Shown here: piece after piece, positions 2,721 through 63,833 of the stretch
How positions within the stretch are numbered: position 1 is the first letter of the stretch
Layout: each line of letters begins with the position of its first letter
Assembly (NCBI GenBank): GCA_022497155.1
Contig: MU385767.1
Coordinates: forward strand, 62,001 to 126,000
DNA from: Whalleya microplaca
Lineage: Eukaryota > Ascomycota > Sordariomycetes > Xylariales > Xylariaceae
Direction of reading: 5' to 3'
DNA: 64,000 nt
Program-made: the position numbers and the translations under genes
The notes under the pieces: generated by a model
Told to the model about the DNA's origin: nothing
Database searches by the model: none
What the model saw: the letters and a program-made list of their open reading frames with translations, nothing else

Positions 2721-3848
2721 ATGTTAACCTTACTATGGGGAGCAACATGTTGCCTCGCGGTGTCCGCTCTGGCTGAGGCCACGCACCCTCCAGCACAGCG
2801 AAAATACAGCAACGGCTCGGACTTCCCCGACGTCTCACAGGCGCGCGCGGCCATCAGCGCGCTCAACACCTACTACGACAACGCCACGGGGCGCTGGGAC
2901 CCGAACGGGGACTGGTGGCAGAGCGGGATCTCGCTGCAGGCGCTGGCGGACTTCATGGGGAAGACGGGGACGCGGGACTACCTGGCGCAGGCGTACAACA
3001 CGGTGCGGCAGCAGCGGGCGCCGCTGGCGTGGTGGCCGGAGGGCGGGGGCGAGTTCCGCGCCGACAGCACCGACGACACGGGTTGGTGGGCGCTGGCGCT
3101 GACGTCGCTGTACGAGCTGACGGGCGACGAGGAGCTGCTGCGGATCGCCCGCCTCGACGAGGCCTACATGTTCGACTACTGGAACACCACCACCTGCGGC
3201 GGCGGCCTGATCTGGGACGTCCCCTCTCGCACCTACCACAACGCCATCAGCAACGAGCTGTACCTGCAGCTGACCGCCAAGCTCCACAACCTCATCCCCG
3301 GCGACACGTACTACCTAAACCACAGCCTGTTGGAGTGGGACTGGTTCCGTGCTAGCGGCATGATCAACGCCGAGGGCCTGATCAACGACGGGCTGACCGA
3401 CGACGCGGCCTGTGTGAATAACGGCCAGCCCGTCTGGACCTACAACCAGGGCGTGGTGCTGGGCGGGCTCGTCGAGCTGTGGAAGGGCACGGGGGACACG
3501 TCATATCTGGATGCTGCACGAAGCATCGCTGACGCCGCGATCAAGAGCTCAGCACTGTTCCCCAACGGCACCCTAACCGATCCGTGCGATACAGCCGAGG
3601 ACTGCGAGCCTAATGGGACCGCATTCAAGGGCCTGTTCATGCGCGAGCTCGGCAAGCTGAACGAGGTTTTGGAGGGCCGTCCGTACCGGGACGTTATTCT
3701 GGATAATTTGCGCTCCATGTACGCGGTCGATCGGAATGCGTCAGATTTCTACGGGCTCTGGTGGCAGGGCCCGTTTGATAGCTCATCGACGGGGGTTGGG
3801 TCGCAGGTTTCTGCCGTTAATCTTTTGATTACCGCACTTGGATTGTGA
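2721..3848 (+). CDS. secreted glycoside hydrolase family 76 (alpha-1,6-mannanase-like)
   Basis: Intronless, 375 aa. Residues 1-20 form a signal peptide (hydrophobic core LTLLWGATCCLAVSALA), so the product is secreted. The GH76 fold follows. The paired aspartates D118-D119 in STDDTGWW sit where the catalytic Asp pair of the family lies. The segments NGDWWQSG, CGGGLIW, NAISNELYLQL, WTYNQGVVLGGL and LWWQGP are also typical. Family members cleave or transfer alpha-1,6-mannan. The fungal Dfg5/Dcw1 branch cross-links GPI proteins to the wall. This protein lacks a convincing GPI signal at its C-terminus (ends LLITALGL), so a free secreted enzyme is more likely. N-glycosylation sequons (NAT, NGT, NAS) are present. 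Strong GC3. Confidence 0.88.
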   Translation: MLTLLWGATCCLAVSALAEATHPPAQRKYSNGSDFPDVSQARAAISALNTYYDNATGRWDPNGDWWQSGISLQALADFMGKTGTRDYLAQAYNTVRQQRAPLAWWPEGGGEFRADSTDDTGWWALALTSLYELTGDEELLRIARLDEAYMFDYWNTTTCGGGLIWDVPSRTYHNAISNELYLQLTAKLHNLIPGDTYYLNHSLLEWDWFRASGMINAEGLINDGLTDDAACVNNGQPVWTYNQGVVLGGLVELWKGTGDTSYLDAARSIADAAIKSSALFPNGTLTDPCDTAEDCEPNGTAFKGLFMRELGKLNEVLEGRPYRDVILDNLRSMYAVDRNASDFYGLWWQGPFDSSSTGVGSQVSAVNLLITALGL

Positions 3849-9382: not shown

Positions 9383-11803
9383 ATGTTGTTCTCCAAACTC
9401 CTGATAGCGGCACTGGCCCCAGTCGGCCTCGTTGCCGACAGCGCACCGCGGACAGCCTCGACGCCAGAGTTGGACCTTGATGCGCTTCTTGCAAGACACA
9501 ATCTAGCATTGGTTCCTCGGTCAGACCTCACGGATGCGCTGACTGAGCTCAATGGCCTTCTTAGAAAGAACCAAGTTCAGCAACAGAAAGTTCCCATATA
9601 CCCGCGACAAAGTAGCAATAGCACTGGTTCTGGTTCCAGCTCTAGCTCCTCATCGGACAGTGGTGGCCTTGACCTTGGAGACCTTACAGGACTTGGTGAT
9701 CTGGGTAAAGTCCTCGAGAGTATTACCAAGCTCGTCACCCAGCTAGGCGACATCGGAGGTTATCTCTCGGCTCTTCAACAGCTACTGAGCGATGAATTCT
9801 TGCAAGCTCTACACGATGCTATGGTCTACCTAGCTGAAACACTACAACCACCTATTCCGCAACTCGCTAGGAGTATTCTTAACAAGACAGAGCCTCTAAT
9901 CGATCTGGTCTCTTCCCTTGATCTACAGAGTATCATAGACGAGGTCAAGGACATTGACGTGAAAGGCATACTCGGTGCCTTGTCCCCACTATTAACTACT
10001 GATTCAATCAAGAGCCTCGTGGCTTTGTTGAACAATGCTGGATCCCTTTTGACTTCGGAGACTGTCGATTCACTTAAGAAACTGCTTTCCAGTGCACAGC
10101 CACTAATTGATAGCCTCTCAGACATTGATCTCAAAGGCGTACTTGATGCTCTATCTCCCCTCCTAACACCGGATTCAGTCAAGGGTCTCGTGAGCTTGTT
10201 AGACAACGCCGGACAGCTTTTGACAACGGAAACTGTCTCAGCGCTCAAGTCATTGCTTTCTAGCGCACAGCCCCTGATCGACAGTCTTGGAAAGATTGAC
10301 CTTCAAGGCCTACTCGATGCTGTCGCCCCGCTACTCACGGCAGATTCAGTGAAGGGTATTGTTGGGCTGTTAGGAAATGCCGAAAACCTCCTTACGTCTG
10401 ATTTCGTTGACCAGACCAAATCCTTAATTTCTGGGGCGGCACCCCTGCTCGACAGTCTTAAGGATATTGATTTGAAAGGCTTGATAGATCAGATCACGCC
10501 GATCCTCAAGGAGCTCAGCCAGCTTGACCTTAAAGGCCTATTTGACGCCATTGGTCCACTTCTAACAACGGATTCCATCAAAGGCATCATAGGGCTTCTT
10601 GGCAATGCTGAAGATCTCTTGACTGGTGAATTCGTGGATCAAACCAAGTCCCTCATTTCAGGGGCAGGGCCTTTGCTCTCTAGCCTTGGCGACATTGACT
10701 TGAAAGGTCTGCTCGACAAGGTCTCACCCTTACTGGACAGCCTTAGCAAGATCGATCTCCAAGGCCTCTTCGACGCCGTGGAGCCGTTGCTGACACCTGA
10801 GTCGGTAAAGGGACTTGTTGGACTTCTAGGAAATACCGAGGACTTGTTGACAACTCAGTTCGTCAACCAAACCCAGACGTTGATATCTGGTGCTGTGCCC
10901 TTGCTTGCTGCCGTCGGAAAGATTGACCTTGAGAGTCTTGTCGACCAAGTGAAACCACTCCTGGATTCTTTAAGCAAGATCGATTTTGCCGACCTCATAG
11001 ATAAAGTGAAACCTATCTTGGATGCGGTGGGCCAGATTGATTTTGCAAGCTTGATTAAGCAAATCACACCAATCCTTAATTCTCTGGGAGAGATTGATTT
11101 GAAGGGTCTTATCGACAAGGTGCAACCTATTCTAGATGCTGTGGGCCAAATCGACATTGGAGGCCTGATTAAACAAATCACTCCAATTCTGAACGCTCTG
11201 GGAGACATCGACCTGAAGGGTATCTTCGATGCCATTGCCCCACTACTTAAACCATCATCAGTCGATGGCCTGGTCGGGCTCGTCGATAACGCCGAGGCGC
11301 TTCTCACCAGCAACTTTGTCAATGAAACGCAGACAATTATCGGCGGCGCAGCGCCATTGATTGGCGTTCTAGGGAAACTTGACATCCAGGGGCTCTTGGA
11401 TAAGGTCAAGCCACTTCTCAACACCTTGGGTCAAATCGACTTCAATGGCCTAATCAATGCTGTCAAGCCTCTTCTAAGTGCTCTAGACCAGATTGATATC
11501 CAGGGAATTGTTGACCAGATCACGCCATTAATCACGCCTGATTCCGTGAAAGGAATCACGACTCTTCTGGGTAACGCAGAGAGTTTGCTGACAGCTGCTT
11601 TCGTCTCGCAGACGACTGAATTGATAGGCGACGCTACACCGGTAAGTTGTCTTCTCATTTCTCTCTTCACATACACATACACAACTACTTCATTTATTTT
11701 CACGTGAGACTTACTTGCCAACTTCTCTAACCCTTCCATATAGATTGTAGCGACGATATCAGACTTCGTCAATGCCCTCCTCCAGGCGATACTAGGGAAT
11801 TGA
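9383..11803 (+). CDS. secreted protein made of thirty 19-residue modules
   Basis: Exons 9383-11641 and 11744-11803 (intron with GTAAGT donor and CTCTAAC branch, ending TAG at 11743) give 772 aa. Residues 1-19 are a signal peptide. A Ser-rich linker lies near residue 80. From residue 191 to 760 the chain is a run of 19-residue units without a single insertion or deletion. There are seven long units of 57 residues (type IDLKGLLDAVSPLLT / KGLVGLLGNAEDLLT / DQTKSLISGAAPLL) and nine single units of 19 (type IDLKGLIDKVxPILDxLGx). The leucine positions of the three thirds of a long unit coincide, so 57 is 3 x 19. Amphipathic helices in a solenoid, or a surface-active wall protein, are the obvious structural ideas. 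I do not recognise a named family and assign no function. Confidence 0.85.
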
Positions 11804-15546: not shown

Positions 15547-16148
15547 ATGTCCATCGAGAACCTCAAGTCCTATGGTACGTGCTGTGCTCATCATCTCCTG
15601 GCTCATCCGTGCTCATCCGTGGTCGTCCGCATTCCCTGCTGTGTCACTGATTGCATCGAGCCTTGCATCTTGAATCTTTAATTTTGAATATTGACTCTCG
15701 AATCTGGCCCTGCTAACATTGTCGCCACCGATATTAGATCCATTCGCTGATGCTGAAGCGAATGACGACCCGGGACAATCTCAGAGCAAGAAGGAGGATT
15801 ACATCCACATCCGCATCCAACAGCGGAACGGTCGCAAGACCCTAACCACCGTCCAAGGCCTTCCCTCCAAGTTCGACCGAAAGAAGATCCTCACCGTGAT
15901 CAAGAAGAAGTTCGCCTGCAATGGCACCGTGGTGATGGACGTGAGCATGGGCGAGGTTATCCAGTTGCAAGGTGACCAGCGCAAGGCTATGCGTACGTGT
16001 GCTCGCTTGCTTCCTTCCTACCTGGCCTAGACGGCCTAGGTCACTACACTAGCATCCGTAAGCTGACTGTTTTGCAGAAGACTTCATGGTCGATAAGAAA
16101 GAAGGCCTGGAGCTCGACCCGAAGACCATCAAAGTCCATGGTTTTTGA
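15547..16148 (+). CDS. SUI1: translation initiation factor eIF1
   Basis: Three exons: 15547-15574, 15738-15992 and 16078-16148 (introns 163 and 85 nt, both with GTACGT donors), giving 117 aa. The first exon codes MSIENLKSY, and the phase-1 junction restores DPFADAE. The SUI1 core follows: IHIRIQQRNGRKTLTTVQGL, then KKFACNGTV and GEVIQLQGDQR. The last exon gives DFMVDKKEG...KTIKVHGF, the usual eIF1 ending. eIF1 binds the 40S subunit next to the P site and enforces AUG selection during scanning. Length and intron positions are ordinary for the family. The ATG at 15547 was chosen because it yields the conserved MSIENLK start. Confidence 0.96.
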
Positions 16149-17760: not shown

Positions 17761-19134
17761 TTACATATTGAAAACGCCTTTTATTTCCGGCCATAGCATT
17801 TCCAGAAGGCGCCACAAAACTATGTAACCGGTGGTAATCTGTAAAGCCTGGTTCCCATTCCCAGTTATCATACTTTTATTCTTGTTTCCAAGTTGTTGAG
17901 TTTTATTGGTGTCTCCCTTCGTTGTGCTCCAGTTAGTATTGCCTAGTTGAACTGTTGTATTGCAATCCCCCCAGATGCTGGACTCATTTAAATATTTTCC
18001 TTCGTTTGAACTAGGTACCGTGTGAGCTGATTGTCCATGAGAAGAACAGGCGTCATTAACCATCTTGGTAATGTTGTCCGCAACTTGCTGATACATTGGG
18101 TCGTCATCATTGGCAAATTTACATATTTGGCGATGATCAGCATCCAATGGTATCTGCTTCTCACGAGTGCCTGGCAATCCAAGGATCGCGGAGTGCTGAG
18201 TTACAACCTGAGTATATTGTTAGTCTACGCATTCTGAACGACGCATGATCTGATAATCCTTACAATACCGAAGCGACCAAGAGGTTGGGTTTCATAGAAG
18301 GTTAGAAATTGGAGATCCTCAAGGAGCTGGCGGAAGTCATTGGCGATAGTGTCGAGGATAGAACTACCCTTGAGTGCATCCATAAAGTTGTTACTAGGAC
18401 TCCCCAACAGGGAACGAGCAATCTTTGCCACTATATCGCCGACTTCTGTATGATTTCCCCCCTTATGCGGGGTGCTAAAGAAGGCAACACCAAACGTTGA
18501 TTTGCGGATCGATTCGTAGGTCTTGTCGTTACTTGAATGAACTAGAGCCTAGAGAGAGTTAGAAACTCCGCACATGTGCACACGAAGTTAGATAATTCTG
18601 GTGGCGTACCCGTTTCACAACAATTCCCCCTAAGCTATGGCATATAAATACCAATGGGCGGTTGGGATCCATCTACTGCAAGTGAGTCATTGCACCGTAA
18701 TCAACATGCCATGGTACGTACAGTCCGTGCTGCCTGAACATGATTTAGGAGGTTCTCGGCCTGCTCCGTTATACCAGCAGTTGATGCTTGAAATGCCACG
18801 TTTGAATTATATCCAAAGAGCAATATCCTTGCGCTTGGGATACGATTCGGAAGGAAATCTCTAAGCCATAACTTGCCCTCAGATGTCCATGTGGATTCGG
18901 CGTGTAATGGGTTACCAAGAGGGTTCAGTCCGTGAACGGCGACGATGCTAATTTGTATCTGTTAATCGGGTTGCAATATCGATCCTGAGCTGAAACATAC
19001 TCAACAGTAGGATTTGGAGGATTAACAAGGACTTTCAAGAAATTCTTCGAGTTTTCGGCTTTTCCTTCTTTTTTGGCCGTGCGGTATGTCTTTTCAGACT
19101 GCTTTCGACCCCAGGGAACCATTGTAAGCTTCAT
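17761..19134 (-). CDS. SesB-type alpha/beta-hydrolase with C-terminal amyloid-like repeat
   Basis: Five deduced exons on the minus strand: 19001-19134, 18722-18947, 18610-18672, 18264-18548 and 17761-18207 (introns 49-61 nt), giving 384 aa in one frame. The N-terminus leads into NPPNPTVDIVAVHGLNP, the oxyanion strand. Ser133 in FICHSLGGIVVK is the nucleophile elbow, and His261 in IPLDADHRQICKF is the likely catalytic histidine. GLPGTREKQ and FFSTPHKGG are typical of fungal SesB/SBP esterases, the lipase effectors of amyloid-controlled cell-death pathways. After the enzyme domain, residues 316-363 (17827-17970) form two and a half 18-residue repeats, x-G-D-x-N-x3-Q-x-G-x2-N-x-S type, exactly where known family members carry their amyloid motif. 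The same repeat occurs in two neighbouring genes. The enzyme call is firm. The amyloid role is inference. Confidence 0.8.
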
Positions 19135-20694
19135 ATTAATTTGGGCTTGGAACTGATGAACACGGATATTTTACTCCAAAGGTAGTATCTACGCAGAAAG
19201 CTTTTATTGTCTTCTAGTGAGCCTGAAATGCCCAATCATTGACATGCTAACACGCTTAGCCAGTATCAATGATACCTTCTGACGCTGTAAGCGAGTAAAA
19301 TGCGGATACCTTAGCTGAGAGCCTTGAAGAATATATACATATTGATGAGATACGCAGTTAATGATACTTGATTGGTTTGAGGTTTCGCTGTTTTAGAGTG
19401 GTAGATGGTTTGTTATATATACATGATGCTACTATATGTTCTATATTGTACCAGTCTTTGACCCTCAATTCAATACATATATGTAGCATTGATGATACTC
19501 CGCTGCAATCGGAACGCCCACCGCCTGTATCAATTATTGTGTGGTTGCACGAAACACAGCCTTCCTCGGCAATGCTGAAGTTGAGGCTGGCAACTGGCGG
19601 TGTATGCCAGCCGTCGTGTTCAGGCGGCCATTTTGAAGTGACCGCTGCTGGCCAACTTCGTCACAGCTCACTCTTGCTATCGTAAGAAAGTTGTACAAAA
19701 TAGGTAGGTCTTATATAGGACCGATTTTAGCCTTTGAGCTTTGTTTCCTACGGGTAGGTATCGACGAAATTAAAGATTGTAAGCGATGTTTGTTTCGCCC
19801 ATCCCCCTTTCGCAACAGAGGCTACGAAAGCCTCAAGAGTCGCAGTTCATGACGGAGGCATCATAATGCCTGCAAAATGGCTGCAAACTACCTAGGGGCC
19901 GGCAGGCTCCTCAAGCACCCAATGATAGTGTTGGTTGGACTTGGACATCTCGGCAAATCTCACTGAAATGGGGACGTGTCTGGGTCATCGGTTTCGTGGT
20001 GGCGCAATTGAGCGAGTTCGCATTTATGCCAATGGACTTAACAATCACAAATTCTCCAGGCTTTCTGAAATATGCGTCCTACTGTGCGACACTATTCTGC
20101 CTTGCTATATATGTAACCACAATGTATTAGAGACTTATGAAGGGCCAAGGCTGTCACTGTGTCTCGCACCCAACTTCGCGATAGGTGACTCGCGCGGGAT
20201 GCGACAGCTTATACATCGTAGCCTGCTTTATCTTCCGTTTCAAAATTTTTCTCCTTCGCATGTCATACCATTTTCTATTTCGGTGAGGCATGCTGTGCTT
20301 GACTTGCAAGGTTCTTCTGCATATATTTAACTTCGGTACTGTAATGCAACTCCGTAATACGACAGCTTCAAATGAATTATAAATAATCCCCAGCCTTGCT
20401 CAAAGGATAGCAATGATAATGCTCAGAGGGTAGGTCGCAACCTTGATAAATATCTGAGGCACCTCCGCCTTCACCAGGCGCAGGATAATATAACAAAACT
20501 ACCCAGCCTCAGGATGAAAAAGAATGTTTTTTTAACATCACATCCTATTGTGCTATAAACGACTGCCTTAGAAATAGTCTTAATATCAATACATCGGTAG
20601 GTCCTCTGCTATTATTTTCTTATGTACCGTCTCCCAGTCTGTACAAACCGAGCAGGTGTACTTTCGCCAACCCCTTATCGTCTATAGAGCAATA
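19135..20694. other. intergenic, degenerate repeat copy
   Basis: Shared promoter region of the divergent hydrolase (minus) and tail-anchored protein (plus) genes. Around 19355-19455 lies a C-to-T/G-to-A altered copy of a sequence also found near 59072-59165. Other ORFs here (19368-19685, 19935-20330) show no recognisable motif. Confidence 0.5.
19355..19455 (+). repeat. degenerate dispersed repeat, copy A
   Basis: Aligns by eye with 59072-59165: the shared frame runs GATTGGTTTGAGGTTTCGCT versus GACTGGCCTGAGGTTCAGCT, then AGAGTGGT, then ATACATGATGCTACT versus ATACACAATGCTACT. Differences are mostly C/T and G/A, as left by RIP. Confidence 0.45.
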
Positions 20695-21072
20695 ATGGCA
20701 ACGCGTACGGTGCATGACAAACCGCAACCGGAACCGGGGTTCTATTTTAAGAATTCCAAGGGAAACACATTGCGAGGCCCCCAAGAAGACAAGAGCGACA
20801 ACAAGGATGAGAGCGACGTCAAGAAACCCAGCGACCCAAAGCAAACCGACACGTCCATTTGCAATGTCAAGACTGACGGCCAAAATGATGGGGACGATAA
20901 TAATATCGATCAGGAGGGAGAAGGGAACAGGGGTAAGAATCGGGGACAGAGGAACAAGATTCGGCAGAATATCCCTCCTCCGCCTCCGGGCCTTGGCTAC
21001 ATGAAATGGATTGGTGCTTATGCAATAGCCCTAGGAGTTTTGGTGGTTTGGGCCCGTTGGATATTGAAGTAG
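20695..21072 (+). CDS. tail-anchored small protein with the shared 18-residue amyloid-like repeat
   Basis: Intronless, 125 aa, starting at the ATG 20695 that follows an in-frame upstream extension of poor quality. Residues 1-60 are charged and disordered-looking (many D, K, N, P). Residues 67-84 are one complete 18-residue repeat (DDNNIDQEGEGNRGKNRG), and 85-91 (QRNKIRQ) begin another with N and Q in register. Both match the repeats of the hydrolase and of the gene at 21664-22143. A PPPPPG linker then leads to one membrane helix (about 105-122, WIGAYAIALGVLVVWA) and a short basic tail, the layout of a C-tail-anchored protein. No enzymatic domain is visible. Inference: a membrane-tethered member of the same signalling group. 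It could also be an unrelated N/Q/G-rich protein. Confidence 0.55.
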   Translation: MATRTVHDKPQPEPGFYFKNSKGNTLRGPQEDKSDNKDESDVKKPSDPKQTDTSICNVKTDGQNDGDDNNIDQEGEGNRGKNRGQRNKIRQNIPPPPPGLGYMKWIGAYAIALGVLVVWARWILK

Positions 21073-21120
21073 TTGTGATGGATAGTATTCGAGGCTTGTT
21101 GGGTACTTTAGGGATGCGAA

Positions 21121-21357
21121 ATGACTGTTTTCACTGTAGTCCACTTAACAGTGGATATACTTCCCTCGTGGTATATTTCTTCTAGTGAATGGATGTATTA
21201 TCCTCAGTTCACACTGCCAATCATAGTGCTGCCGACCTTATGGCTCCTCCTAACCTTTCTGGTCTCCTTAATTGTGAATTACTCCTTGCTAGCACTGGTA
21301 ATAGAGGTTTTTGTGTATGTACAATTCGCCGTATTATCCTACTGCCTTAAACCGTAG
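21121..21357 (+). CDS. small hydrophobic ORF, doubtful
   Basis: 78 codons from ATG 21121 to TAG 21357. Most of the chain is hydrophobic and could form two membrane helices (FTLPIIVLPTLWLLLTFLV; YSLLALVIEVFVYVQFAVL). It lies 48 bases downstream of the tail-anchored gene on the same strand. No family is recognised, and AT-rich DNA readily yields such hydrophobic ORFs, so it is listed only as possible. Confidence 0.2.
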   Translation: MTVFTVVHLTVDILPSWYISSSEWMYYPQFTLPIIVLPTLWLLLTFLVSLIVNYSLLALVIEVFVYVQFAVLSYCLKP

Positions 21358-21663
21358 CTATGAACTGGGTCGTCTCCCGCCGCCCGGAAGGGTTATTAGA
21401 GAGGGGGTCCCGCCTTGTACTGGTTGTAATAGCTTTAAGAACGAGGGTTGCGAAGAGAAGATACTTATGTTCTACTAGTGAGATGTTTCGCGGGGAATAT
21501 ATACACTATTAAGTGGACTGGTGAAAATAGTCATTTTGCTAGGGATGGAACTGAAGGTTGTTTTGTCTATTGATGATCAAGTATCTAAACAATGAAGATT
21601 GAACATAACCACTGTCATCACTTAACGGGGAATTAGTGGTACATCAAACATGCAACCCGCCAA

Positions 21664-22143
21664 TCACTCCTGAAGCCTATCGACTTTGGTATTCCATGGC
21701 CAATGGGACAAGAGCCACTTATACCATTCCACGCATTCGCTACGGTCCCTTTCTGGAATATATTCCTTGTTTGTATCCTCCATGCCATCTTTATACTCGT
21801 CGCGAATGCGAGTCTGAATAATCGTCTTCTTGACACCAGTTGCTGTGCTGACGTTGTGTTGTCCCCGCTGGGCTATCCTATTATCATCTCCACGCGTGTT
21901 GCTGGTGTTGTAATTGTCAATCTGTAGAGTTCCGTTACCACATCCGTTGACCTCGGTAGAGTGACCATCACCTTTTTGACCGGTATTGTTGTTGTCTTTT
22001 TCATGGAGGCACTTATTTTTGACCCCGTATTGATCTATCTCGTTGCCATTGCAATTGTTCTCAGCATTGTTGCTGCCATCTGAGCTAGCGATGTAGTTGT
22101 TGCCGAACGCAATTCTTCTAAGTTTTGCGAAGAGGTCATCCAT
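21664..22143 (-). CDS. small protein with five perfect-register 18-residue N/Q/G repeats
   Basis: Single open exon on the minus strand, ATG 22141-22143, 159 aa. Residues 14-103 (21835-22104) are five consecutive units of exactly 18 residues. The four clear ones, starting at residues 32, 50, 68 and 86, all have N at position 3 and Q at position 7. Most also have G at 9, N at 12, S/T/C at 14 and G at 18. The last reads DDNRIAQRGQHNVSTATG. The repeat is the same as in the SesB-type hydrolase (17761-19134) and the tail-anchored protein (20695-21072). Short polar flanks follow, with a Trp-rich end (WYKWLLSHWPW). There is no signal peptide. A stacked beta-solenoid or amyloid core is the structural inference. 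An additional upstream exon cannot be excluded, since a CAG precedes the ATG. Confidence 0.55.
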   Translation of the reverse strand: MDDLFAKLRRIAFGNNYIASSDGSNNAENNCNGNEIDQYGVKNKCLHEKDNNNTGQKGDGHSTEVNGCGNGTLQIDNYNTSNTRGDDNRIAQRGQHNVSTATGVKKTIIQTRIRDEYKDGMEDTNKEYIPERDRSECVEWYKWLLSHWPWNTKVDRLQE

Positions 22144-29361: not shown

Positions 29362-30580
29362 ATGACAGACTTTCCACTGGTGCCTGGGCCAAAAATAAAG
29401 CCATTCAACACTGGAAGAAATCCACCGAGGATCGAGTTCATCAAGCATATTGGTAAAGGGTCCCACGCTCATGTATGGAAAGTAGAAATCAATCGTAAAA
29501 CCTACGCTTTAAAAATAGTACGAATGCCCCTTGCCGAGAATTTCGCTCGTGAGTCTTATTTTATCACAGTTCACTTTCTGGCATCACTATCCCGAGCCAG
29601 AATGTTACGGCCTCGAAATGAGCGATGAGCAGGTGAATGCTTACCTGCACCCGTTCGGTTGTGAGTGTCGCGTATACGGGCGTCTCCAGGAGCTGGGAAA
29701 GGAAGACCTTGCTATCCGGTGTTACGGATACCTGCTTCTTGATCAAAAGCAGCAGGCCCTTCTCCGTAAGTCAGACACCTTCTCCTGGGAGGAAGACTGG
29801 GGATACGAGGAATCCGTTTATAAGGGAAAGCCACTACGCGCCCTCGTTAAAGAGTATATCTCGGTACCCAGCCCACCCGCCAACAGACTCAAATTTGCCA
29901 AATATGGGACGGAAGTAGCCTGTAAGTAGCACGCGGAATGGTTATTTATACGTTCGCCTCTTACAGGCGCACGCATGCCCTGTTAGCTATGTTCAAGAGA
30001 AAAATATTTGGAACAAGTCTTACAACTCCCTTCTGTTTTCCCAGTATGGCCCAATAGAAGATTACTGATCCCCAACATTATAGTTAGCCCGCGTACGGCG
30101 CCGCGCCTTATCCGCGCAGTCAAGACAATGCATCGTTCCGGGATTCTGATTCGCGACATCGGCATCGACAACGTGATAGATGGTCGCCTGGTTGATTTCA
30201 GTATGGCTTGGACGATGCCGCACCCGTGCCTCGCACCGAAACCCCTGATCCCGTGGTACGAACTAGGACAGCACGATGCTTATTGTGTCGACCGTATGAT
30301 CGCCAATTGGAATGCAACGCACGGACCGGAATATAGGGAAGACGGGAAAGAGTTCATCTGGGAACGTATGTTACCAAATGAGGAATATATGGACAAGTTG
30401 AGATCACAGTCCGATAGGGAAGACCGTGAGTGGAACGAGGAGAACTACGCTTGGCACATTAGGATTCAAGACTTCGACTGGAAGAAGGCAGGAACGAAGA
30501 GGAATAAGAAGCAAAATGGCAAGACGTCCACAGTGAGAGCCTCAAAGACTAGACAAAAGAGACATACAATAGTTAACTAA
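29362..30580 (+). CDS. Fta2-type kinase-fold protein, copy 1
   Basis: Exons 29362-29517, 29570-29921 and 30045-30580 (introns 52 and 123 nt) give 347 aa. The start MTDFPLVPGPKIKPFN leads to a glycine-loop-like HIGKGSHAHVWKV and ALKI. FGCECRVYGRLQE and YGYLLLD follow, then RSGILIRDIGIDNV (catalytic-loop-like Asp) and VDFSMAWTMPHP (DFG-like). This set is that of fungal proteins annotated under the kinetochore Sim4-complex subunit Fta2 domain, a degenerate protein-kinase fold. In filamentous fungi the family is expanded and mostly not centromeric, so a kinetochore role is unproven. The C-terminal 30 residues are very basic. The paralogue at 34644-35859 has introns at identical positions. The DNA here is less GC-rich than in copy 2. 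Confidence 0.72.
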
Positions 30581-34643: not shown

Positions 34644-35859
34644 ATGGCGGGCTTCCCACCGGTGCCTGGCCCAAAGCTCAACCCCTTCAATGCCGGAAGC
34701 GAACCATTGAAAATCGAGTTCATCGAGCATCTCGGCAAGGGCGACCACGCCCATGTCTGGAAAGTATCCATCAACGAGAAGATCTACGCTCTGAAGATAG
34801 TAAGAACCTCACCCAATCTACCCACAACCGCGTCGCAAAGCCCAACCAGCTCATGAAGCTCACGCCCTCTTCCTTGTAGTTCACCTTCTTCCACAACTAC
34901 GACCCCCCCGACCGCTACAAGCTCGAGCTGACCGCCGACGAAACCGACGCCTACCTGCACCCCTTCGGCTGCGAGTGCCGCGCCTACGCACGCATCCGCG
35001 ACGTCGGCGCCGACGCCCTCGTCGCACGCTGCTACGGGTACCTCCTGCTGGACCAGGAGCAGCAGGCAAGCCTGCGCCAGGCCGACGCCTTTGACTGGGA
35101 GAAGGACTGGGGCTACGAGGAGGCCGAGGACGCGGGCAAGCCGCTGCGCGCCCTCGTCAAGGAGTTCGTCGCGCTGCCAGATCCGCCCGCCGACGGGGTT
35201 GGCCGCTGGGAGACGGAGGTAGCCGGTAAGCAGCACCCGGGGGGTTGATGGTTTACACTTATACATTCGTCTCGTTGAGCACGGGAGCATAAATGGCCTC
35301 GGGGGTTGGATATGCTCGAGGGAAATCTTCCAGACAGAGCCTTCCAACTCCCGGCTGATTCACCCAATGCGTTTAAATGGGAGGAGGATCGCTGACTCCC
35401 GACTCCGTAGTTAGCCCGCGCTCGGCGCCGCGCCTCATCAGCACGGTAAGGACGCTGCACCGCTCGGGCATCCTGGTGCGCGATATCAGTCTCGCCAACG
35501 TGATCGAAGCGCGCATCCTCGAATTCAGCATGGCGTGGACGATGCCGCACCCGTGTCTGGCGCGCGTCCGGTGGCAGGACCGCGCTCATCGGGATGCCTG
35601 CGACGTTGACGGCATCATCGATGCGTGGAACGAGATGCACTCCGTAGAGCGAGCGGGGCGCGAGTTTGAGGGGGTGATATGGGTGCGTATGTTGCAGAAT
35701 AATGTGTATGCGAAGAAGCTGCGGTCGCGTGGGAATAGGGGCGAGTATAACGAGGCGAATTACGGGTATAGGAGGAAGGTGCTGGATTTCGACTGTAGGA
35801 AATTCGAAGCAAGGAATAAGAAGAAGAAGAAGAAAAAGAAGTCGAGCAAGATCGCCTGA
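34644..35859 (+). CDS. Fta2-type kinase-fold protein, copy 2
   Basis: Exons 34644-34799, 34880-35225 and (less certain) 35384-35859 give 325 aa. ATG 34644 was chosen because MAGFPPVPGPKLNPFN aligns with the start of copy 1. Both introns fall at the same codons as in copy 1. Conserved blocks: HLGKGDHAHVWKV, FGCECRAYARI, GYLLLDQEQQ, RSGILVRDISLANV and EFSMAWTMPHP. In the last block copy 1 has VDF and this copy has LEF, so the DFG-like Asp is replaced by Glu. The second half ends in a Lys-rich tract. The second intron needs a non-consensus GAG acceptor at 35381-35383, because the position that is CCCAG in copy 1 reads CCCAATG here. This copy may therefore be mis-spliced or decaying. It is strikingly GC-rich compared with copy 1. 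Confidence 0.62.
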
Positions 35860-37927: not shown

Positions 37928-40900
37928 ATGTCTACCCGACCAACCCGTCGTGCCGCGGCCGCGAGACGCGCAGCTATCGTTGAATCCGAGGACGAAGACG
38001 ATGTTGTCGCAAACACCACCAAGGTCAAGCAAGAAGAGAGCGAGGAGGAATTTGCCCCAGAAACATCCACCCGAGCCGCCCGGAGGACCACCCAGACCAG
38101 CAGGAGGAAGTCCGCAGTACCCGGGACGCCACGAGCAGCCCGCGCGAGGAAGAGTGTCGCCCCCGAGTCCACCATCATCGAACCCAGCGAAATACTCGAC
38201 CCCGATCAGACAGCTGCTACCGTAATCGGCCCAGAATCATCTACCAAGAAAGCCTCCCCGCGCAAGCGCAAGAGCGTTGCGCCCAGGAAGGCCAGCAAAG
38301 AGGCCACGCCCGACAGCCAGCCTGCGATCCCCACGCCCGCGCAATCCGAGGAACCGTCCGAGCTCCATGGCACGCCGCTGGCTGATATCACCAACCAGAG
38401 CATCAATGAGCAGCAACAACCCTCCGGAGACGAGACCGTCACCCAGGTCAAGCCCATCAGGCCCATGGACACCATCCTGGAGAAGCCCATGGATATCGTC
38501 CTGAAGTCGCGTCAGGTCGCTCCCCCCGTGGTCGAAGACACGGGGCCCAAGCCTCGTATCGTCATCACCTACCTCATATTGACCAACTTCAAGAGTTATG
38601 CCGGTCGACAGGAAGTCGGGCCGTTCCATGCCTCCTTCTCGTCAGTCGTTGGACCCAATGGATCAGGCAAGTCCAACGTCATCGACTCGCTTCTTTTTGT
38701 CTTCGGTTTCAGGGCGAGCAAGATGCGACAGGGGAAGATCTCGGCTTTAATCCACAATTCCGCCGCCTACCCCAATCTAGATCACTGTGAGGTGGCAGTT
38801 CACTTCCAAGAAGTCATGGACCTGGTTAGTTAGATAGATATGCTGTATTATATTGGACATAAAGTGCTAACTAGGTGAATGTCTAGCCCGGCGGTGGATC
38901 CGAAGTTATCCCCAACTCCCAAATTGTCATCTCCAGGAAGGTCTTCAAGAACAACTCCAGCAAGTACTATATCAACGGAAAGGAGTCCAACTTCACTACC
39001 GTGACTGCACTCCTCCGCGAGAGGGGTGTCGATCTTGACCACAAGCGTTTCCTCATCTTGCAGGGTGAAGTTGAGTCCATTGCCCAGATGAAGCCTAAGG
39101 CTGCCAACGAACATGAAGATGGTCTACTTGAGTATCTGGAAGACATCATCGGCACTTCCAAGTACAAGACACCAATTGAGGAGTCGGCCACCGAGGTGGA
39201 GACCCTCAACGAGATCTGCATGGAGAAAAGTGGCCGTGTTCAGCATGTCGAAAAGGAGAAAAACGGCCTCGAGGACAAGAAGAACAAGGCTCTGGCCTAC
39301 ATCCGAGATGAGAACGATCTAGCCCTTAAACAGTCAGCCCTTTACCAGCTCTACATGAGTGAGCTTGACGACAATGTTGCTGTTACCGAAGAGGCAATCA
39401 GCCAGATGCAAGCTCAGCTCGACGAGGAGCTCGAGAAGCATCAGGGGGGCGAACAGATCATCAAACAGCTACAAAAGGCATACTCAAAGGGCGGCAAGGA
39501 ATTCGAGTCTCAGGAGAAGGATGTCCAAGCCCTCGTGAAGGAGATCGCCAAATTCGAACAAGAAAGAGTCAAGTTTGACGAGAAGCGGAAATTCTTGACC
39601 GACAAGCAGAAAAAATTAGAGAAGACAATTACGAATGCCGAAAAGTCCACGACTGAAGCCGACGAGACGGTTGAACAGTGTACCGAGGAAATCGCCACGC
39701 GCACCGAAGAGATCGCCGCGCTCGAGCAGCGGGTTCAGGAAGAAGAGGCAGAACTCGCTACCATCCGAGATAGCTTGAAGGGCAAGACACAGGTGTTTTC
39801 GGACCAGATAGCCGTCAAGCAGAAGTCCCTCGAGCCTTGGAAGGAGAAAATCAACCAGAAGCAGTCTGCCATTGCCGTCGCCGAGTCGGAAATGGCCATC
39901 CTGGAGGAAAAGGCCAATGCTGGCGCTGTCGCCCTCGAAGAGATGAAGACCAAAATCGCTAACATCGAGGAGGGTCGTACTGCTAAGCTTGCTCAGCTCG
40001 AGGAGTTCCAAGCTGAAAAGGCCAAACTGGAGAAAGAGGCTAAGAAGGTCGAGACCGAGCTAGAGGGTATGACCGAGATGGAGGCTAGGGTTCGCTCTCA
40101 GGTGTCGAATGCGAGACAAAAGGCCGATGAGGCCAGATCTAGCCTTTCGCAAACGCAGAATCGCGGCAATGTGCTGGCGGCACTCATGCGAATGAGGGAG
40201 TCGGGAAGAATTGACGGCTTCCATGGCCGTCTTGGAAATCTCGGTACAATCGATGAGAAGTATGATGTCGCTATATCCACGGCGTGCGGTGCTCTTGACA
40301 ATTTCGTCACCGACACGGTTGACGCCGGTCAGCAATGCATCGAGTACCTTCGGAAGACCAACCTTGGGCGAGGCAACTTTATCTGTTTGGACAAGCTGCG
40401 CGTCCGTGATATCCAGGCTATACAGACCCCAGAGAATGCACCACGCCTATTTGACCTAGTCAAGGCTAAAGAGGACAAGTTCCGGCCTGCCTTCTACCAC
40501 GCACTACAAGACACCCTGGTCGCGAACGATCTAGCGCAAGCCAACCGAATTGCCTACGGTGCTAAGCGATGGCGAGTCGTCACTCTTGATGGAGAGCTTA
40601 TTGACAAGAGCGGTACTATGTCTGGTGGTGGCAAAACTGTCAAGAAGGGCTTGATGTCCAGCAAACTCGTGGCTGACACGACTAAGGAGAAGGTCGCCAA
40701 GTTTGAGAGTGACCGTGACGCCATCGAAAAGAAGTTCCACGAATTCCAAGAGTACCAACGGGAGCTGGAGACTCGCCTTAGGTACCTGAAAGACCAGATC
40801 CCTCAATTAGACACCAAAATGCAAAAGATCGGTCTCGAGGTGCAGAGCGCAGAGAAGAACCTAGCAGATGCCCACAGACGTGTCAAGGAGCTGGGCAAGG

Positions 40901-42505
40901 AACACCAACCCTCTCAGTCCGACGACAACAGAGTAGCTGTCCTGCAGAAAGAGATCGCCAAGCTGAACAAGGAGGTGTCGAAGCTGCACACCGAGACCGA
41001 AGGCGTGGAGGCAGAGATCAAAGAGCTGCAGGACAAGATCATGGAAGTCGGCGGTGAGAAACTCCGAGCTCAGCGCGCGACCGTCGATGCGATCAAAGAG
41101 GAGATTGCCTCCCACAACGAGGAAACCTCGAACGCCGAGGTGAAGAAAGCCAAGGCAGAGAAATCCAAGACGAAGCTGGAGAAAGACCACGCCAAGGCTA
41201 CCAAGGAGCTCGAGATCGCCATCCGCGACCTCGAGAAGCTCGAGGCGGAAGTCGAGAACCAAGACAGCAAGTCCGAGTCTCTGAACGCCCGTGTCGAGGA
41301 GGCCGAGGAGGCGCTCGGGGAGAAGAAGAAGGAACTCGCTGCGATGAAGTCCGAGTTGGACGAGAAGACCTCGCAGCTCAACGAGACGCGCGCCGTCGAG
41401 ATCGAAATGCGCAACAAGCTCGAGGAGAACCAGAAGGTGCTCGTCGAGAACCAGAAGCGCCTGCGCTACTGGAACGAGAAGCTGGGGAAGCTTGTTATCC
41501 AGAACGTTAGCGATCTCAGTGGCGAGTCGACGCCTGCACAAAAGCCTACCCAGAAGCCCACCCAGCAACCGACTAAGGAAGGCCAAGAGCCGGCCGAGGA
41601 CGAAGAGGAAGAGGAGGAGGAAGAGGCCGAGGAGGAAGCATCGCAAGAGCAGCCCCAGGAACAACCACAGGAACTCCCGCGGTTCACCAAGGACGAGCTC
41701 AAGGACATGAACAAGGAGACGCTCAACGCCGAGATCGCAGCCCTAGAGGAGAAAACACAAAACGTCAACGTAGACGTGAGCGTGCTCTCCGAGTACCGGC
41801 GGCGCGTAGAGGAGCACGCGGCGCGCTCCTCCGACCTCGCGAGCGCGGTGCAGCAGCGCGACGGCGCCAAGAAGCGGTGCGACGACCTGCGGCGGCTGCG
41901 GCTGGAGGGGTTCATGGAGGGGTTCTCGTGCATCTCGCTGCGGCTCAAGGAGATGTACCAGATGATCACGATGGGCGGCAACGCCGAGCTCGAGCTCGTC
42001 GACAGCCTCGACCCCTTCTCCGAGGGCATCCTGTTCTCCGTCATGCCGCCCAAGAAGAGCTGGAAGAACATTTCGAACTTGAGCGGTGGAGAGAAGACGC
42101 TGTCGAGTCTGGCGCTGGTGTTTGCGCTGCATCATTATAAGCCCACGCCGCTGTATGTCATGGATGAGATTGATGCTGCGCTGGATTTTCGGAATGTGAG
42201 TACCCCCTTTCATTTTCAATGTTTAATACACACAAAATACATATTCAATTTACTAATCATACTTTCGGTCACAGGTCTCCATCGTGGCCAACTACATCAA
42301 GGAGCGGACCAAGAACGCGCAGTTCGTGGTCATCTCGCTGCGCAACAACATGTTCGAGCTCGCCGCCCGCCTCGTCGGCGTCTACAAGGTCAACCACATG
42401 ACCAAGAGCGTCACCATCGAGAACCGCGACTTCATCGCCCGCGCCGTCTCCGCCCGCCACCAGCAGCATCTAGGTGGTGGTGGGGCTACCATGACGGTCA
42501 CGTGA
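37928..42505 (+). CDS. SMC4: condensin ATPase subunit SMC4
   Basis: Exons 37928-38824, 38887-42195 and 42275-42505 (introns 62 and 79 nt) give 1478 aa, normal for filamentous ascomycete SMC4. After a basic, Pro/Ser/Glu-rich N-terminal extension of about 200 residues comes the head: Walker A GPNGSGKSN at about 242, then KMRQGKISALIHNS. Long coiled coils flank the hinge (about 738-900, GFHGRLGNLGTIDEKYDVAI, with SGTMSGGGKTVKKG after it). Near the end are an acidic insertion, the ABC signature LSGGEKTLSSLAL (about 1363) and Walker B VMDEIDAALDFRN (about 1391), which is split by the second intron. SMC4 pairs with SMC2 in condensin and compacts mitotic chromosomes. The ATG at 37928 sits in an ACCGCCATG context. 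An in-frame upstream TTG is not a start. Confidence 0.97.
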
Positions 42506-45033
42506 TTGCGTGGACGTCGGCTCTTGTGGGGTCGGGTGGATGGTGGGCAGCGCTGGGGGTTGTGAGCGTATGGCATGGCATGACTTGATGATTGGATGGA
42601 CGGGTAGATGGATGAATAGATTGGGGGATAGGTGATGGCGTGTCGCGTCGTCTATATGGGATCAATGAATGAATGATGGTTGAATGACAGGATTACATAT
42701 ATCATAGTTGCGGTTCGTGTGTGATGAGAAGTGAAGCAAGCACATAAGCAAGCACGCTGCCATGTTGATTAAAGGTGAAGTTTAGAGCAGTATAATGAAT
42801 GAGATGAAACGAAGCGTCTGATATTGAGCGAGTTCATGGGGCAGACGGTCAGCTGGGGTATGACTGGATATACTTGGTTCGAGGTGATGATTTGAGATGT
42901 GGGTGTGAAGATGTACTGTCTAACCAGTTAAGATGTGTTTTTAGGGGGTGGTCGACAGTTTGTGCAGTATGTCCGCAGTGTGAACTGTACCTTATGAGTT
43001 CGACATGGCCGCTAGGAAGTTGACCGTGTATTCTGCCTGTCTTGCACATGGTGAGTCTTTAGTAACTATACTCGCTCCGCATATTGTCGAAGGGGGCAGC
43101 TTGTTGGTTTGATGGCTCGGATTTCATGGCTCTGACATATGGTGGCTAGGGTTGAGGGAGGGAGTAGTCTAGAATCTAAATTCGTGTCTAGATTATATAG
43201 ACTGCCAGGCTTAGAATCGAGGGAGGAGGGGAAAGGGGCGTATATGCTCAGCGCTGATTTAGCAATTGCGAATGTATATATATAGGACATAGCTTCATTT
43301 CCCTAGTAAGTACACATTGATGGTAAAACCGTATCATCTTGAGTAGCTGCAAGAACTCCGAGAGCAAACGCCATAACCATAGAAAATCAGAAGCCAGTCA
43401 GTTCAAGAAGGCGAATGCCACTGCACACTACCTCCGTGGATATGTATACTCTAAACCACGCTCTGTGTTAGGTATTCGTTGAATAATCGGGCTTCTGCTC
43501 TGTCGTGGACTTGTATGGAGGGTCCGGCGTGGGTGTTAACAAGTAATAATTACCAATATTAAAATAACCGTTGAATTCGATGATATTGTGGTTATCATAA
43601 ACATGATAAACTGCTTCCACAGCAATTAATGTATGAAATATAGCACTTTTATATGTGCCATGCGGGCTCCCAAAGAATAGGCGCTATCTGACAGTCCTCT
43701 GGTGATAAACCCTACAATAATAACGTGACTCAGGAATTGACTACTATAGATAGAGGCAAGGCTCTGATATGAATGCCAATCACAGATTAATAGAAGGATT
43801 GAGAGGAGCCTTATCTTCCAATATGGTATTTATTATATAATACCTGATGGGGAGCCCCCAGGACCATGAGCCATTCGTCTCCACCATTCTACTTTTCTAC
43901 CGTACAGGAATACTCTAACAGGTAACCTGTTCACTGTATGCAGGTATATCCAATAATTACGTCGTCAGTCCAGAAGGTGTACAGGAATACGTGTGTGACA
44001 AGGGCTGTAATTCAGGGCTTGGAAATATTCAATTCAGCAATAATTCTCTAGGCCCTCTAAGGGTACTTGTTGTTCTAAGTTTCAATCTGAGTCTAAGGTT
44101 CAGCGTCAGGTTCTTATAGACCTGCTGCCGCGGTACGTATTCCTGGTACGTATCTAGTCTGTTGCCGACATAGCCGCCGTCTGGTAATCATACCTTTTGT
44201 TAGGTAGTCATACATTCCAACAGTATCGAATAATATCCAGCAGCACCCAATATATGTACTTATGCAGCATTCCTGCATCTCGTATAGCTTCCAACAGGTC
44301 TTGGCTCCAATAGCCGTGTGACAACGTGCATATGTTACGCTTTCGAAAGCATTGTGTGGCAAAGCTCCTGCGTGCATAACATCATGACAAGCTACTTCTC
44401 GAGGCCTCTTACACGGTCGCCGATCTTTGAGGGGACCGTGGCGAATAGGGATGGGGGATCATTTCCGGAGTGGTGTGAAATAATATCGACGGAAACCGGT
44501 GTAATATGATATACATCAGATACTGCCGACACCGACCGATTTTATGGCGGACAAACAAAATTTGAAGGTGGTAACAATGCTACGGTGTACGAGAAAGCGA
44601 TGTAGTAGACTAGTTCTACAAATAATTGGCATAAAAAGGCCATCTGCAATACGTCATACCATGTCTCGCGTAAAGTTTCCCCCATGGACCAAGCGATATG
44701 GGCCTCTTTTCAACTTGGTCTTTTGTCGACATTACACCTGTTCTACCCGGGTACCATATATCTCACGTGGTCAAAGAAAACGGAGTTCATATAGATGCGG
44801 GTAAACGCGGGGAGGTAATAGATCGGGCTTCCCGGAAACAAATATAAAGACATGTTTTGGGGACATGAGAAAGTAAGTAGCTTAGGGATTGTCTTTACAT
44901 AACTCACCCAAGTCAGCGTTTCACCTGCACCCCTGTGGCATTACGATATATGTGCCATAACCCCGCTTAGGGCAAAGTTATCACGCGTCAGAGCTGCTGT
45001 TTTCTCCCTGATTTAGAAGCCGAGAATCTCAAG
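42506..45033. other. long AT-rich gene-poor stretch
   Basis: The first 300 bases are the SMC4 3' flank with GGATGGATG-type simple repeats. The rest shows no ORF with a recognisable motif on either strand (44114-44377, 44318-44509 and 44544-44804 were considered). It should contain the promoter of the gene at 45034. Confidence 0.5.
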
Positions 45034-55794: not shown

Positions 55795-57091
<1,297 letters not shown>

Positions 57092-62474: not shown

Positions 62475-63833
62475 CTAGTTGTTAGGAAACCCAGCCCTGA
62501 GGTTATCATACTTCGTATGCGGATAGTCCAAACAATTCCTCCTGTGGTCCAGCGCCTGGGGACCGCCAAGGCCATGAACCACATTTCCAATCAAGCTCTG
62601 CGGCCCCTCCTTATCCGCGCTGCTCTCCCACCACATCGCCCCGCCGAGCGCCCAGTCCCGCACAAAATGCGTCTTCATCCGCGCCATCTCGACCGTGTCG
62701 TAGCTGACCATCGTCCGTGTTCCCGGGTGGTAGCAGTAGCTGGCCCCCGCGGCCCTGTCGATCCGCTCCTCCGAGCCAGGGAGAGGGAGCTTCTTGTAGT
62801 CGTGCACGCCGTTCTCCCATGTGCCCTCGCCGATGCCGCTGTAGCTGCACCCGGGCCCGTCCGTGTTCTGGAATGCGCGACCGTACAGTGGCATCCCTAG
62901 CACGATCTTGCCCGGCGCCACGCCGTGCGAGGTGTAGTAGTTCAGGGCCCCGGTCGTGCTGAAGGGAGTAGAGCGGGGGTTCTGCGCGGACGGGAATATG
63001 TTCGCCTGGTGGCCCGCGGTCTGGTCCCAGGACCCCGCGTAATCGTACGCCATTAGGTTCCAGAAATCCAGAAGGCGGTCCATGGCGGGGATGTTCAGCT
63101 TTTGATAGTTTTGCGCGCCCGCCGGACAGGCGACGGTGAGCTCAAAGTGGTAAAAGGCGGGCAGCGTTCGACTGTAGCCGTCCATGGCGTCGCGCACGGC
63201 CTGTAGCAAGGCAACGAAGTCATTCGCCTCTGCGGGGGATTGTGGATACTCCCAGTCAATGTCGATGCCATCGAAGCCGAGGTTCTTGATCAGCTCGACG
63301 CAGGAATTGGCAAAATTGGCCCGACCTTGCGGCGTAGAGGCGGGCTGCTTGAAGTTGGAGCTGTAGGTCCAGCCGCCTACAGACAGGAGGACCTTCAGGT
63401 TGCGATTCCTGCGCTTCAGCAGATTAAGTTGCTTCATGCACCCGTACAGATTTGTGCCGCTGTCGTTCCAGCTGTCGCCCTCCCAGTGGATGTCAGTATC
63501 CGCCCAGGTGTCGGTCAGATACACCTCGCCCGAGTCGGGGCGCACGTTGGCGAATGCATAGAGAATATGGGTGAGCTTATCGGCAGGTAGATCCTGGGGC
63601 CGATGCTTGCGACCGTAGATGGCCCAGTTGACAAAGTACGCAACTGTGCGGTAATGCTCTGGTCCGCCTCCCATGTTTGTATTTGGTTTGGGGTTTGAGA
63701 TAATGCTAGGTATATATTGGCTGGAAATAAGACTGGAGAGTGACGAGGGTGAGATATTCCCAAGTAGGAGGATGGTGAATAATATTGCCAATGGGAGGAG
63801 ATAGAGAAGAGAAGGTCTGAGTGATGAGAACAT
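62475..63833 (-). CDS. GH18 chitinase (class V)
   Basis: Intronless, 452 aa, minus strand, ATG 63831-63833. An N-terminal hydrophobic segment (LLYLLPLAILFTILLLG) acts as signal peptide or anchor. The TIM barrel shows YFVNWAIYGRKH, LKVLLSVGGWTYS (the SxGG motif), FDGIDIDWEYP with the DxxDxDxE catalytic residues (Glu at about 195), LMAYDYAGSWD and GGAMWWESS. It hydrolyses chitin beta-1,4 bonds and may serve wall remodelling or scavenging. No carbohydrate-binding module or GPI signal follows the barrel. An in-frame ATG at MGGGPEHYRT (about residue 54) would give a cytosolic form. I prefer the longer one because its leader is a good signal sequence. Confidence 0.93.
   Translation of the reverse strand: MFSSLRPSLLYLLPLAILFTILLLGNISPSSLSSLISSQYIPSIISNPKPNTNMGGGPEHYRTVAYFVNWAIYGRKHRPQDLPADKLTHILYAFANVRPDSGEVYLTDTWADTDIHWEGDSWNDSGTNLYGCMKQLNLLKRRNRNLKVLLSVGGWTYSSNFKQPASTPQGRANFANSCVELIKNLGFDGIDIDWEYPQSPAEANDFVALLQAVRDAMDGYSRTLPAFYHFELTVACPAGAQNYQKLNIPAMDRLLDFWNLMAYDYAGSWDQTAGHQANIFPSAQNPRSTPFSTTGALNYYTSHGVAPGKIVLGMPLYGRAFQNTDGPGCSYSGIGEGTWENGVHDYKKLPLPGSEERIDRAAGASYCYHPGTRTMVSYDTVEMARMKTHFVRDWALGGAMWWESSADKEGPQSLIGNVVHGLGGPQALDHRRNCLDYPHTKYDNLRAGFPNN

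Follow-up and report, generated by a model that had tools for sequence, protein, structure and literature searches.

A Conserved Three-gene Cluster of Whalleya microplaca With a Common Nine-residue Repeat—A Candidate for Fungal Amyloid Signaling

The window analyzed here is a stretch of 64,000 nucleotides (C58:62001-126000, contig C58) from the 48 Mb, 114-contig genome of the fungus Whalleya microplaca. It contains three neighboring genes that encode a SesB-type α/β-hydrolase (herein the esterase), a tail-anchored protein (TA), and a multi-repeat protein (REP), all of which bear one short repeat rich in glycine, asparagine, and glutamine. Judged from the coordinates, esterase and TA are arranged divergently, and TA and REP convergently. 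A paralogous cluster is found on contig C1. All three genes and their repeats lie at, or a few residues off, the positions given in an initial annotation of the window.

Architecture of the three genes and of their common motif

The esterase gene (17761..19134, minus strand) was modeled with five exons (19134-19001, 18947-18722, 18672-18610, 18548-18264, and 18207-17761) and encodes 384 amino acids; an alternative acceptor of the last intron leads to 380. The protein belongs to the DUF676 serine esterases (Pfam E 1.5e-5, 25.1 bits compared with a cut-off of 20.3) and holds a CHSLGG nucleophile motif as well as a conserved DADH..ICKF block. Across 51 aligned homologues, S129, G131, G132, H257, C261, and F263 (numbering of homologue P0001) are invariant or nearly so; these we take to be the putative active-site residues. 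P0001 itself is full-length, 85% identical to the window esterase, and has the identical type of C terminus. Hydrolases of the SesB type also occur as N-terminal effectors of fungal NOD-like receptors (NLRs). The SesB-type assignment made in the initial annotation is retained on the basis of family and association with NLRs: DUF676 scores above its cut-off, seven homologues contain precomputed NACHT/NB-ARC-type domains (P0053, P0054, P0057, P0093, P0096, P0097, and P0100), and SesB-like loci lie near nucleotide-binding oligomerization domains (NODs).

The motif has a repeat unit of 18 residues, found in the esterase C terminus, TA, and REP alike. It is composed of two halves, GxxNxTxQx and GxxNxSxxx. 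The 18-residue repeat described initially is recovered in all three proteins, whereas the true period is nine residues with Q-type and S-type halves alternating. The esterase contains five contiguous halves in the order Q-S-Q-S-Q (residues 316-359; 17839..17970, minus strand): GDCNTTVQL, GNTNWSTTK, GDTNKTQQL, GNKNKSMIT, and GNGNQALQI. In TA, three halves of the order Q-S-Q (residues 66-92; 20890..20970, plus strand) read GDDNNIDQE, GEGNRGKNR, and GQRNKIRQN. REP exhibits the longest array (residues 14-110; 21814..22104, minus strand) with approximately ten halves as counted by eye, several of which are degenerate; the pattern [GD]xxN gives eight matches, two of them overlapping.

That the three genes share one motif was proposed initially and is borne out by a profile built from 54 other esterases, which includes no row from the window and one row (P0011) from the C1 paralogue. 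This profile scores 60.6 bits on the window esterase, 36.8 bits on REP (E 3.4e-9 for 20,000 sequences), and 16.2 bits on TA (E 0.009). The C1 counterparts reach 47.5 (REP) and 19.0 bits (TA), and the TA homologues P0123 and P0124 reach 19.4 and 17.2 bits. For each of the seven proteins tested, none of 2000 composition-preserving shuffles attained the real score, and a profile from the 36 rows beyond rank 20 alone gave similar scores.

A search under a length limit that left out full-size NLRs gave 272 homologues of the esterase, of which 120 were listed and examined for the motif. A homologue was counted as motif-bearing if it matched a 44-residue pattern with at most three of 13 fixed letters different, as is the case for 54 of the 120. 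The consensus within this family is GxxNxTxQ[AF]GxxNxSx[TVI]xGxxN. The spacing is rigid, with all 13 fixed G/N/Q positions present and gap-free in 47 of the 54 rows. P0065 and P0073 contain a partial motif; the remaining 64 homologues, which lack it, are mostly truncated models, fusions to NLR or repeat domains, or more distant sequences, with a few full-length proteins. Carriers include species of Hypoxylon, Daldinia, Annulohypoxylon, Xylaria, Nemania, Pestalotiopsis, Gaeumannomyces, Pyrenochaeta, and Fusarium—genera of different orders. P0002, the public Whalleya microplaca model of the window esterase, is 100% identical over 74% of the query; it ends in NITKMFKRRKIFK and so lacks the motif, although the DNA codes for it. 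P0005 likewise stops before the motif. Such truncated models hide the motif from scans of proteomes.

In 12 of the 54 motif-bearing esterases, including forms from Xylaria and Nemania as well as the C1 paralogue, the motif is followed by a strongly hydrophobic segment, which fits an action at membranes that is guided by the motif. Motif and possible membrane segment are combined in one chain in P0021, P0022, P0026, P0029, P0036, P0051, P0064, and others.

TA (20695..21072, plus strand) is encoded by a single exon with a reading frame from the ATG at 20695. Its 125 residues are organized into a polar N terminus, the motif, a proline run/linker, and one C-terminal hydrophobic segment (residues 106-124; 21010..21066, plus strand). 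The latter is a membrane anchor as predicted from hydropathy (Kyte-Doolittle mean of 1.91 over 19 residues). REP (21664..22143, minus strand), an open reading frame (ORF) in a single exon, comprises 159 residues and consists mostly of motif; its nonrepeat C-terminal third ends in an aromatic stretch. It contains no strongly hydrophobic segment, the best mean over 17 residues being 0.31. Pfam searches found no family for TA or REP.

A second cluster and the conservation of the gene set

The C1 cluster (about C1:1595130-1599700) comprises REP on the plus strand, TA on the minus strand, and the esterase on the plus strand. Inverted, this reads esterase minus, TA plus, and REP minus; hence, the order and relative orientation of the window genes are kept. 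Three motif queries against the whole 48 Mb genome (E <= 10) found five places with the consensus 44-mer, two with a composite 53-mer, and five with the C1 REP. All of these fall inside the C58 and C1 clusters, and of the six cluster genes only the window TA was missed by all three queries. The whole REP sequence as a query gave three places, all within the two clusters.

Phylogenetically, the motif-bearing esterases form one clade (support 97/98) in a tree of 48 rows, made up of 38 motif rows (37 of the 54 homologues and the window esterase), six fused proteins, and four sequences that belong to no group. Herein, the window esterase groups with P0001, P0003, P0004, and P0005 (100/99) and the C1 esterase P0011 with P0016 (100/99). 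Since the two paralogues sit in different supported groups, the duplication looks old.

Outside this genome, two TA homologues were found: P0123 from Hypoxylon crocopeplum (69% identity) and P0124 from Annulohypoxylon stygium (56%). Conservation is strongest in the motif and the anchor. With P0123, 31 of 35 positions are identical in residues 58-92 and 35 of 57 in the N-terminal part; with P0124, the values are 25 of 35 and 26 of 57. P0123 lies on a contig of 295,947 nucleotides and P0124 on one of 1,400,421 nucleotides, and the esterase orthologues of these species, P0005 (the truncated model mentioned above) and P0001, lie on contigs of equal size. For both of the two TA homologues, this argues strongly, albeit indirectly through contig size, for linkage of TA and esterase on one contig. 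The gene set is conserved as a unit, with all three members in the C1 copy, and with TA and esterase in two other species. According to the initial annotation, its reading would be refuted if homologues of the three genes were never neighbors elsewhere; the collinear C1 copy and the two apparently shared contigs show otherwise, which favors that reading.

Relation to known amyloid systems and to NLRs

Fungal signaling by a shared motif has a precedent in SesA, SesB, and HET-eN of Nectria haematococca, which share the σ motif, as laid out in the accessible part of PMC3321046. In the same source, σ is given as two G/N/Q submotifs of about nine residues (GxGxQFNxx and GGTQNINT), repeated three times. 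The present system resembles the σ cluster (sesA/sesB/het-eN) in that a SesB-type esterase of about 385 residues carries a G/N/Q-rich repeated motif at its C terminus and is encoded in a cluster with a smaller protein of the same motif. For the repeat itself, the picture is mixed: the period of about nine residues and the alternation of two halves agree, but the signature, GxxNxTxQxGxxNxS, and the five halves in the esterase do not. The present system also has neither an adjacent NLR nor a SesA/HeLo-like protein recognized by Pfam. TA and REP have no counterpart among the proteins named in the portions of the σ literature consulted. The 157-codon ORF-C downstream of N. haematococca SesB is without a homologue according to the available text of PMC516043; REP has 159 codons.

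In Pfam, σ is represented by NACHT_sigma and the PP motif by Ses_B, as far as can be taken from the accessible sections of PMC8086366 and PMC12261475. At E <= 10, neither model (PF17106 and PF17046, respectively) matched any of the 22 motif rows or the 51 full proteins searched, and membership in σ or PP by Pfam was rejected. NACHT_sigma was also without a match in the genome of W. microplaca at E <= 1, the filters of HMMER dropping most matches above about E 0.1. The whole-genome search with Ses_B gave no match and is weak, since its controls were silent too. For HET-s (PF17108), the genome contains a single subthreshold match, located elsewhere (E 0.197). Among 14 control genomes, PF17106 had a sub-cut-off match solely in Escherichia coli, possibly in the curli genes; if so, it would fit a likeness of σ and curlin.

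The best-scoring Pfam model on the motif rows is Curlin_rpt, which matches weakly in three of the 22 rows (best E 0.0018, uncorrected for 22 rows), in none of ten rows rerun singly, and in one of the 51 full proteins (E 0.43). Curlin of the CsgA type (PF07012) has a Q-x-G-x2-N signature and a strand-turn-strand periodicity, as does the motif described here, with a rung of about 22 residues as opposed to 18. Curlin makes up an extracellular fiber system, whereas here an enzyme and a membrane anchor are linked, and inspection of the module proteins by eye revealed no evident secretion signal. A search of PDB sequences at E <= 10 retrieved no relative of the motif with a solved structure.

In Chaetomium globosum, HELLP, SBP, and PNT1 share the PP motif, and HELLP targets SBP to the membrane (PMC7885112, as far as accessible). 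Similarities comprise the combination of a putative lipase with a membrane-targeting partner that has the same motif, and a Q-x-G element within the motif. However, the partner here is a plain tail-anchored protein with no recognized HeLo-like domain, the motif is a tandem of regular 9-mers instead of one pseudo-palindrome, Ses_B is unmatched, and no NLR was found nearby. By analogy, TA may take the role of the membrane-targeting partner. Short G/N/Q motifs common to an effector C terminus and a partner are also known as PUASM (FxGxGxQxxGxGxF, effector PNP_UDP; PMC9815663) and GDQN (NxxxGxQYxxxGxGDQNxVSxxxxQxN, effector SesA; PMC12261475); as given in the available text of these papers, signatures and effectors are unlike those described here.

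The initial claim that motif and partner set may be undescribed holds insofar as none of the Pfam models of fungal amyloid motifs matches; the nine-residue G/N/Q architecture, however, resembles σ and, weakly, curlin. On account of this resemblance to the σ submotifs, the motif may be a far-diverged relative of σ rather than a new invention. Neither the motif nor the tail-anchored partner was found described in the openly accessible literature, searched as text; they may be listed in figures or supplements.

NLRs are numerous in this genome. Searches with NACHT, NB-ARC, and NPHP3_N at E <= 0.01 gave 48, 9, and 83 matches, which merge into 82 NOD loci; some of these do not reach the family cut-off, and some may be fragments of a single gene. 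C58 has no such match, and on C1 the closest one is separated from the cluster by 685 kb, in agreement with the initial observation that no NLR is in view. Many SesB-NLR arrangements occur in the genome: of the 24 SesB-like loci that the esterase query returned at E <= 10 (some of them weak), 19 have a NOD no more than 3 kb away. The five loci away from NODs are the two motif-bearing ones and the weaker C3:433832, C28, and C38:370680.

Among the 120 listed homologues, the motif is absent in all ten that have a precomputed NOD or TPR domain, which is what one would expect of a motif that takes the place of covalent fusion. Alternating architectures—an enzyme fused to an NLR without the motif, or standing alone with it—are described in the accessible part of PMC3321046, and the esterases follow this alternation. 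Thirty-nine NLR-domain loci (a few of them overlapping), out of 140 listed, overlapping NOD matches, were scanned together with 1.5 kb flanks by a version of the profile that included the window esterase and REP rows; none contained the motif (best E 0.81). The remaining NOD matches were covered by single-sequence queries only, which a degenerate copy or distant exon could escape. That the genome encodes no motif-bearing NLR is supported but not proven by these searches.

A proposed module, its alternatives, and the surrounding genes

The three genes are best explained as a signaling module with a homotypic motif of the fungal amyloid-signaling kind, to which we assign a rough probability of 0.55. 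The system represents a real, conserved variant of fungal motif-based signaling, undescribed as far as our searches reach, and it is probably amyloid. The earlier reading was, hence, right in outline and is partly supported, its amyloid part being unproven. The amyloid fold, its templating, and the order of events, as well as the membrane, substrate, trigger, and outcome, we infer by analogy. Each 9/18-residue unit would most likely form a short β-arch or a β-solenoid rung with G-x-x-N turns and two strands per 18 residues, and these rungs would stack in register with copies on the partner proteins. With its many units and no recognized catalytic or membrane domain, REP is the likely nucleator or scaffold, and it could gather the esterase with its five halves and TA with its three into a single polymer. 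The esterase would then be concentrated at the membrane in which TA is anchored and act on lipid there, which would damage the membrane or set off a death or non-self response. In this scheme, TA would do the membrane recruiting that HeLo-like HELLP does for the lipase SBP. A more far-reaching version, which we consider less likely than not, is an NLR-independent amyloid signalosome, in which soluble REP is the sensor or nucleator and templates the esterase onto a tail-anchored receptor of an organelle or the endoplasmic reticulum through a curlin-like 18-residue motif new to the described fungal signaling amyloids.

Several observations weigh against the module. The scans described above found no motif-bearing NLR or other activator, and the genome-wide queries gave no third motif locus. 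Within the window, the motif match of TA is weak, the weakest of the three proteins, and the esterase tail is mildly hydrophobic (0.93). Co-evolution of motif units inside a cluster was not seen: units of one cluster resemble each other no more than they resemble those of the other cluster (BLOSUM means of about 42 for both), unlike in σ clusters, for which the available text of PMC3321046 reports likeness within the cluster. In the protein database, REP had no homologue other than itself among five candidates that had to share 5-residue words. The array of the C1 REP is interrupted by a frame break (L025:204-740); after TTGDRN, motif-like sequence continues in another frame. Because of this break and the lack of an annotated homologue, REP is maybe dispensable or decaying. 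Finally, the whole TA sequence as a query found, besides both TA genes, one weak place elsewhere in the genome (C5:518692, E 2.97), in which the profile version with the window rows detected no motif.

Four other explanations were weighed. Unlikely, though the most serious of them, is a diverged σ system triggered by a normal NLR with a matching N terminus encoded elsewhere, REP and TA being accessory effectors. It draws on the SesB-type esterase with its C-terminal G/N/Q repeat of nine residues, on a similar length (44 columns as opposed to 42 NACHT_sigma positions), on the abundance of NOD loci, and on the σ submotifs, which fit the register of G1 by eye (sequences as given in the accessible part of PMC3321046); signaling between NLRs and effectors of non-adjacent genes is suspected in the available text of PMC9815663. 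However, NACHT_sigma stays unmatched at every level searched, the motif queries find no NLR, and the 39 scanned NLR loci lack the motif, with the reservation that a degenerate copy could escape and that over half of the NOD matches lie outside the profile scan. Somewhat less probable still is a stable, folded β-solenoid that, by end-to-end pairing, would keep an esterase complex on a membrane in the service of ordinary lipid metabolism, with no prion-like templating. The indel-free spacing in 47 of 54 rows suits such a fold, as do the conserved residues that we take to be catalytic and the lack of any death domain, such as HeLo, in the Pfam search. Yet, in this genome, esterases of this family are associated with NLRs, known signaling amyloids have the same composition of G, N, Q, T, and S with polar ladders, and the top Pfam model on the motif rows, though weak, is the curlin repeat.

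An allorecognition or selfish element, in which REP is a prion with esterase and TA as executioners, and a heritable aggregate acts in heterokaryon incompatibility or spore killing, appears improbable. The sesA/sesB locus of N. haematococca controls a cytoplasmically inherited state, according to the accessible parts of PMC516043 and PMC3321046, and the duplication of the unit with one broken REP frame may occur in fast-evolving recognition genes. However, Xylariales, Fusarium, and Gaeumannomyces have retained the motif-bearing esterase, a distribution more in keeping with a conserved role in immunity than with a polymorphic killer. Coincidence of unrelated, Asn/Gly-rich ORFs of low complexity near an esterase was rejected and deserves hardly any weight: all three stretches are indeed N/G-rich, and two of the proteins have no Pfam family, but no shuffle reached the real scores, the cluster recurs collinearly on C1, and TA is conserved in two other species, mostly in motif and anchor.

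If the signaling module is real, it adds a motif present in several fungal genera to those described. It would also provide a new way in which a lipase reaches a membrane with no pore-forming domain involved, and it may represent amyloid signaling without an NLR. As far as the accessible literature goes, fungal amyloid motifs were mostly found through NLR N termini or effectors beside NLR genes; a tandem-motif system with unannotated small partners and no adjacent NLR could, thus, be missed. The rigid period of the motif makes it a good structural subject for the question of how coexisting amyloid motifs set their specificity.

Several surrounding genes of the window are ordinary. They encode a GH76 protein (2721-3848), SUI1/eIF1 (15719-16030), a P450 (25639-26373), an SMC protein (39001-42588), a ubiquitin-S27a fusion (56132-57091), and a GH18 protein (62475-63833). 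A tandem-repeat ORF of 774 residues with repeats of the type DLKGLLDALSPLLTPDSVKGL is located at 9383-11707. Two similar ORFs at 30008-30580 and 35377-35859 have the segments RSGILIRDI/RSGILVRDI and AWTMPHPCLA in common; the latter ORF matches FTA2 (E 4.6e-7), and the pair resembles related kinase-like fragments.

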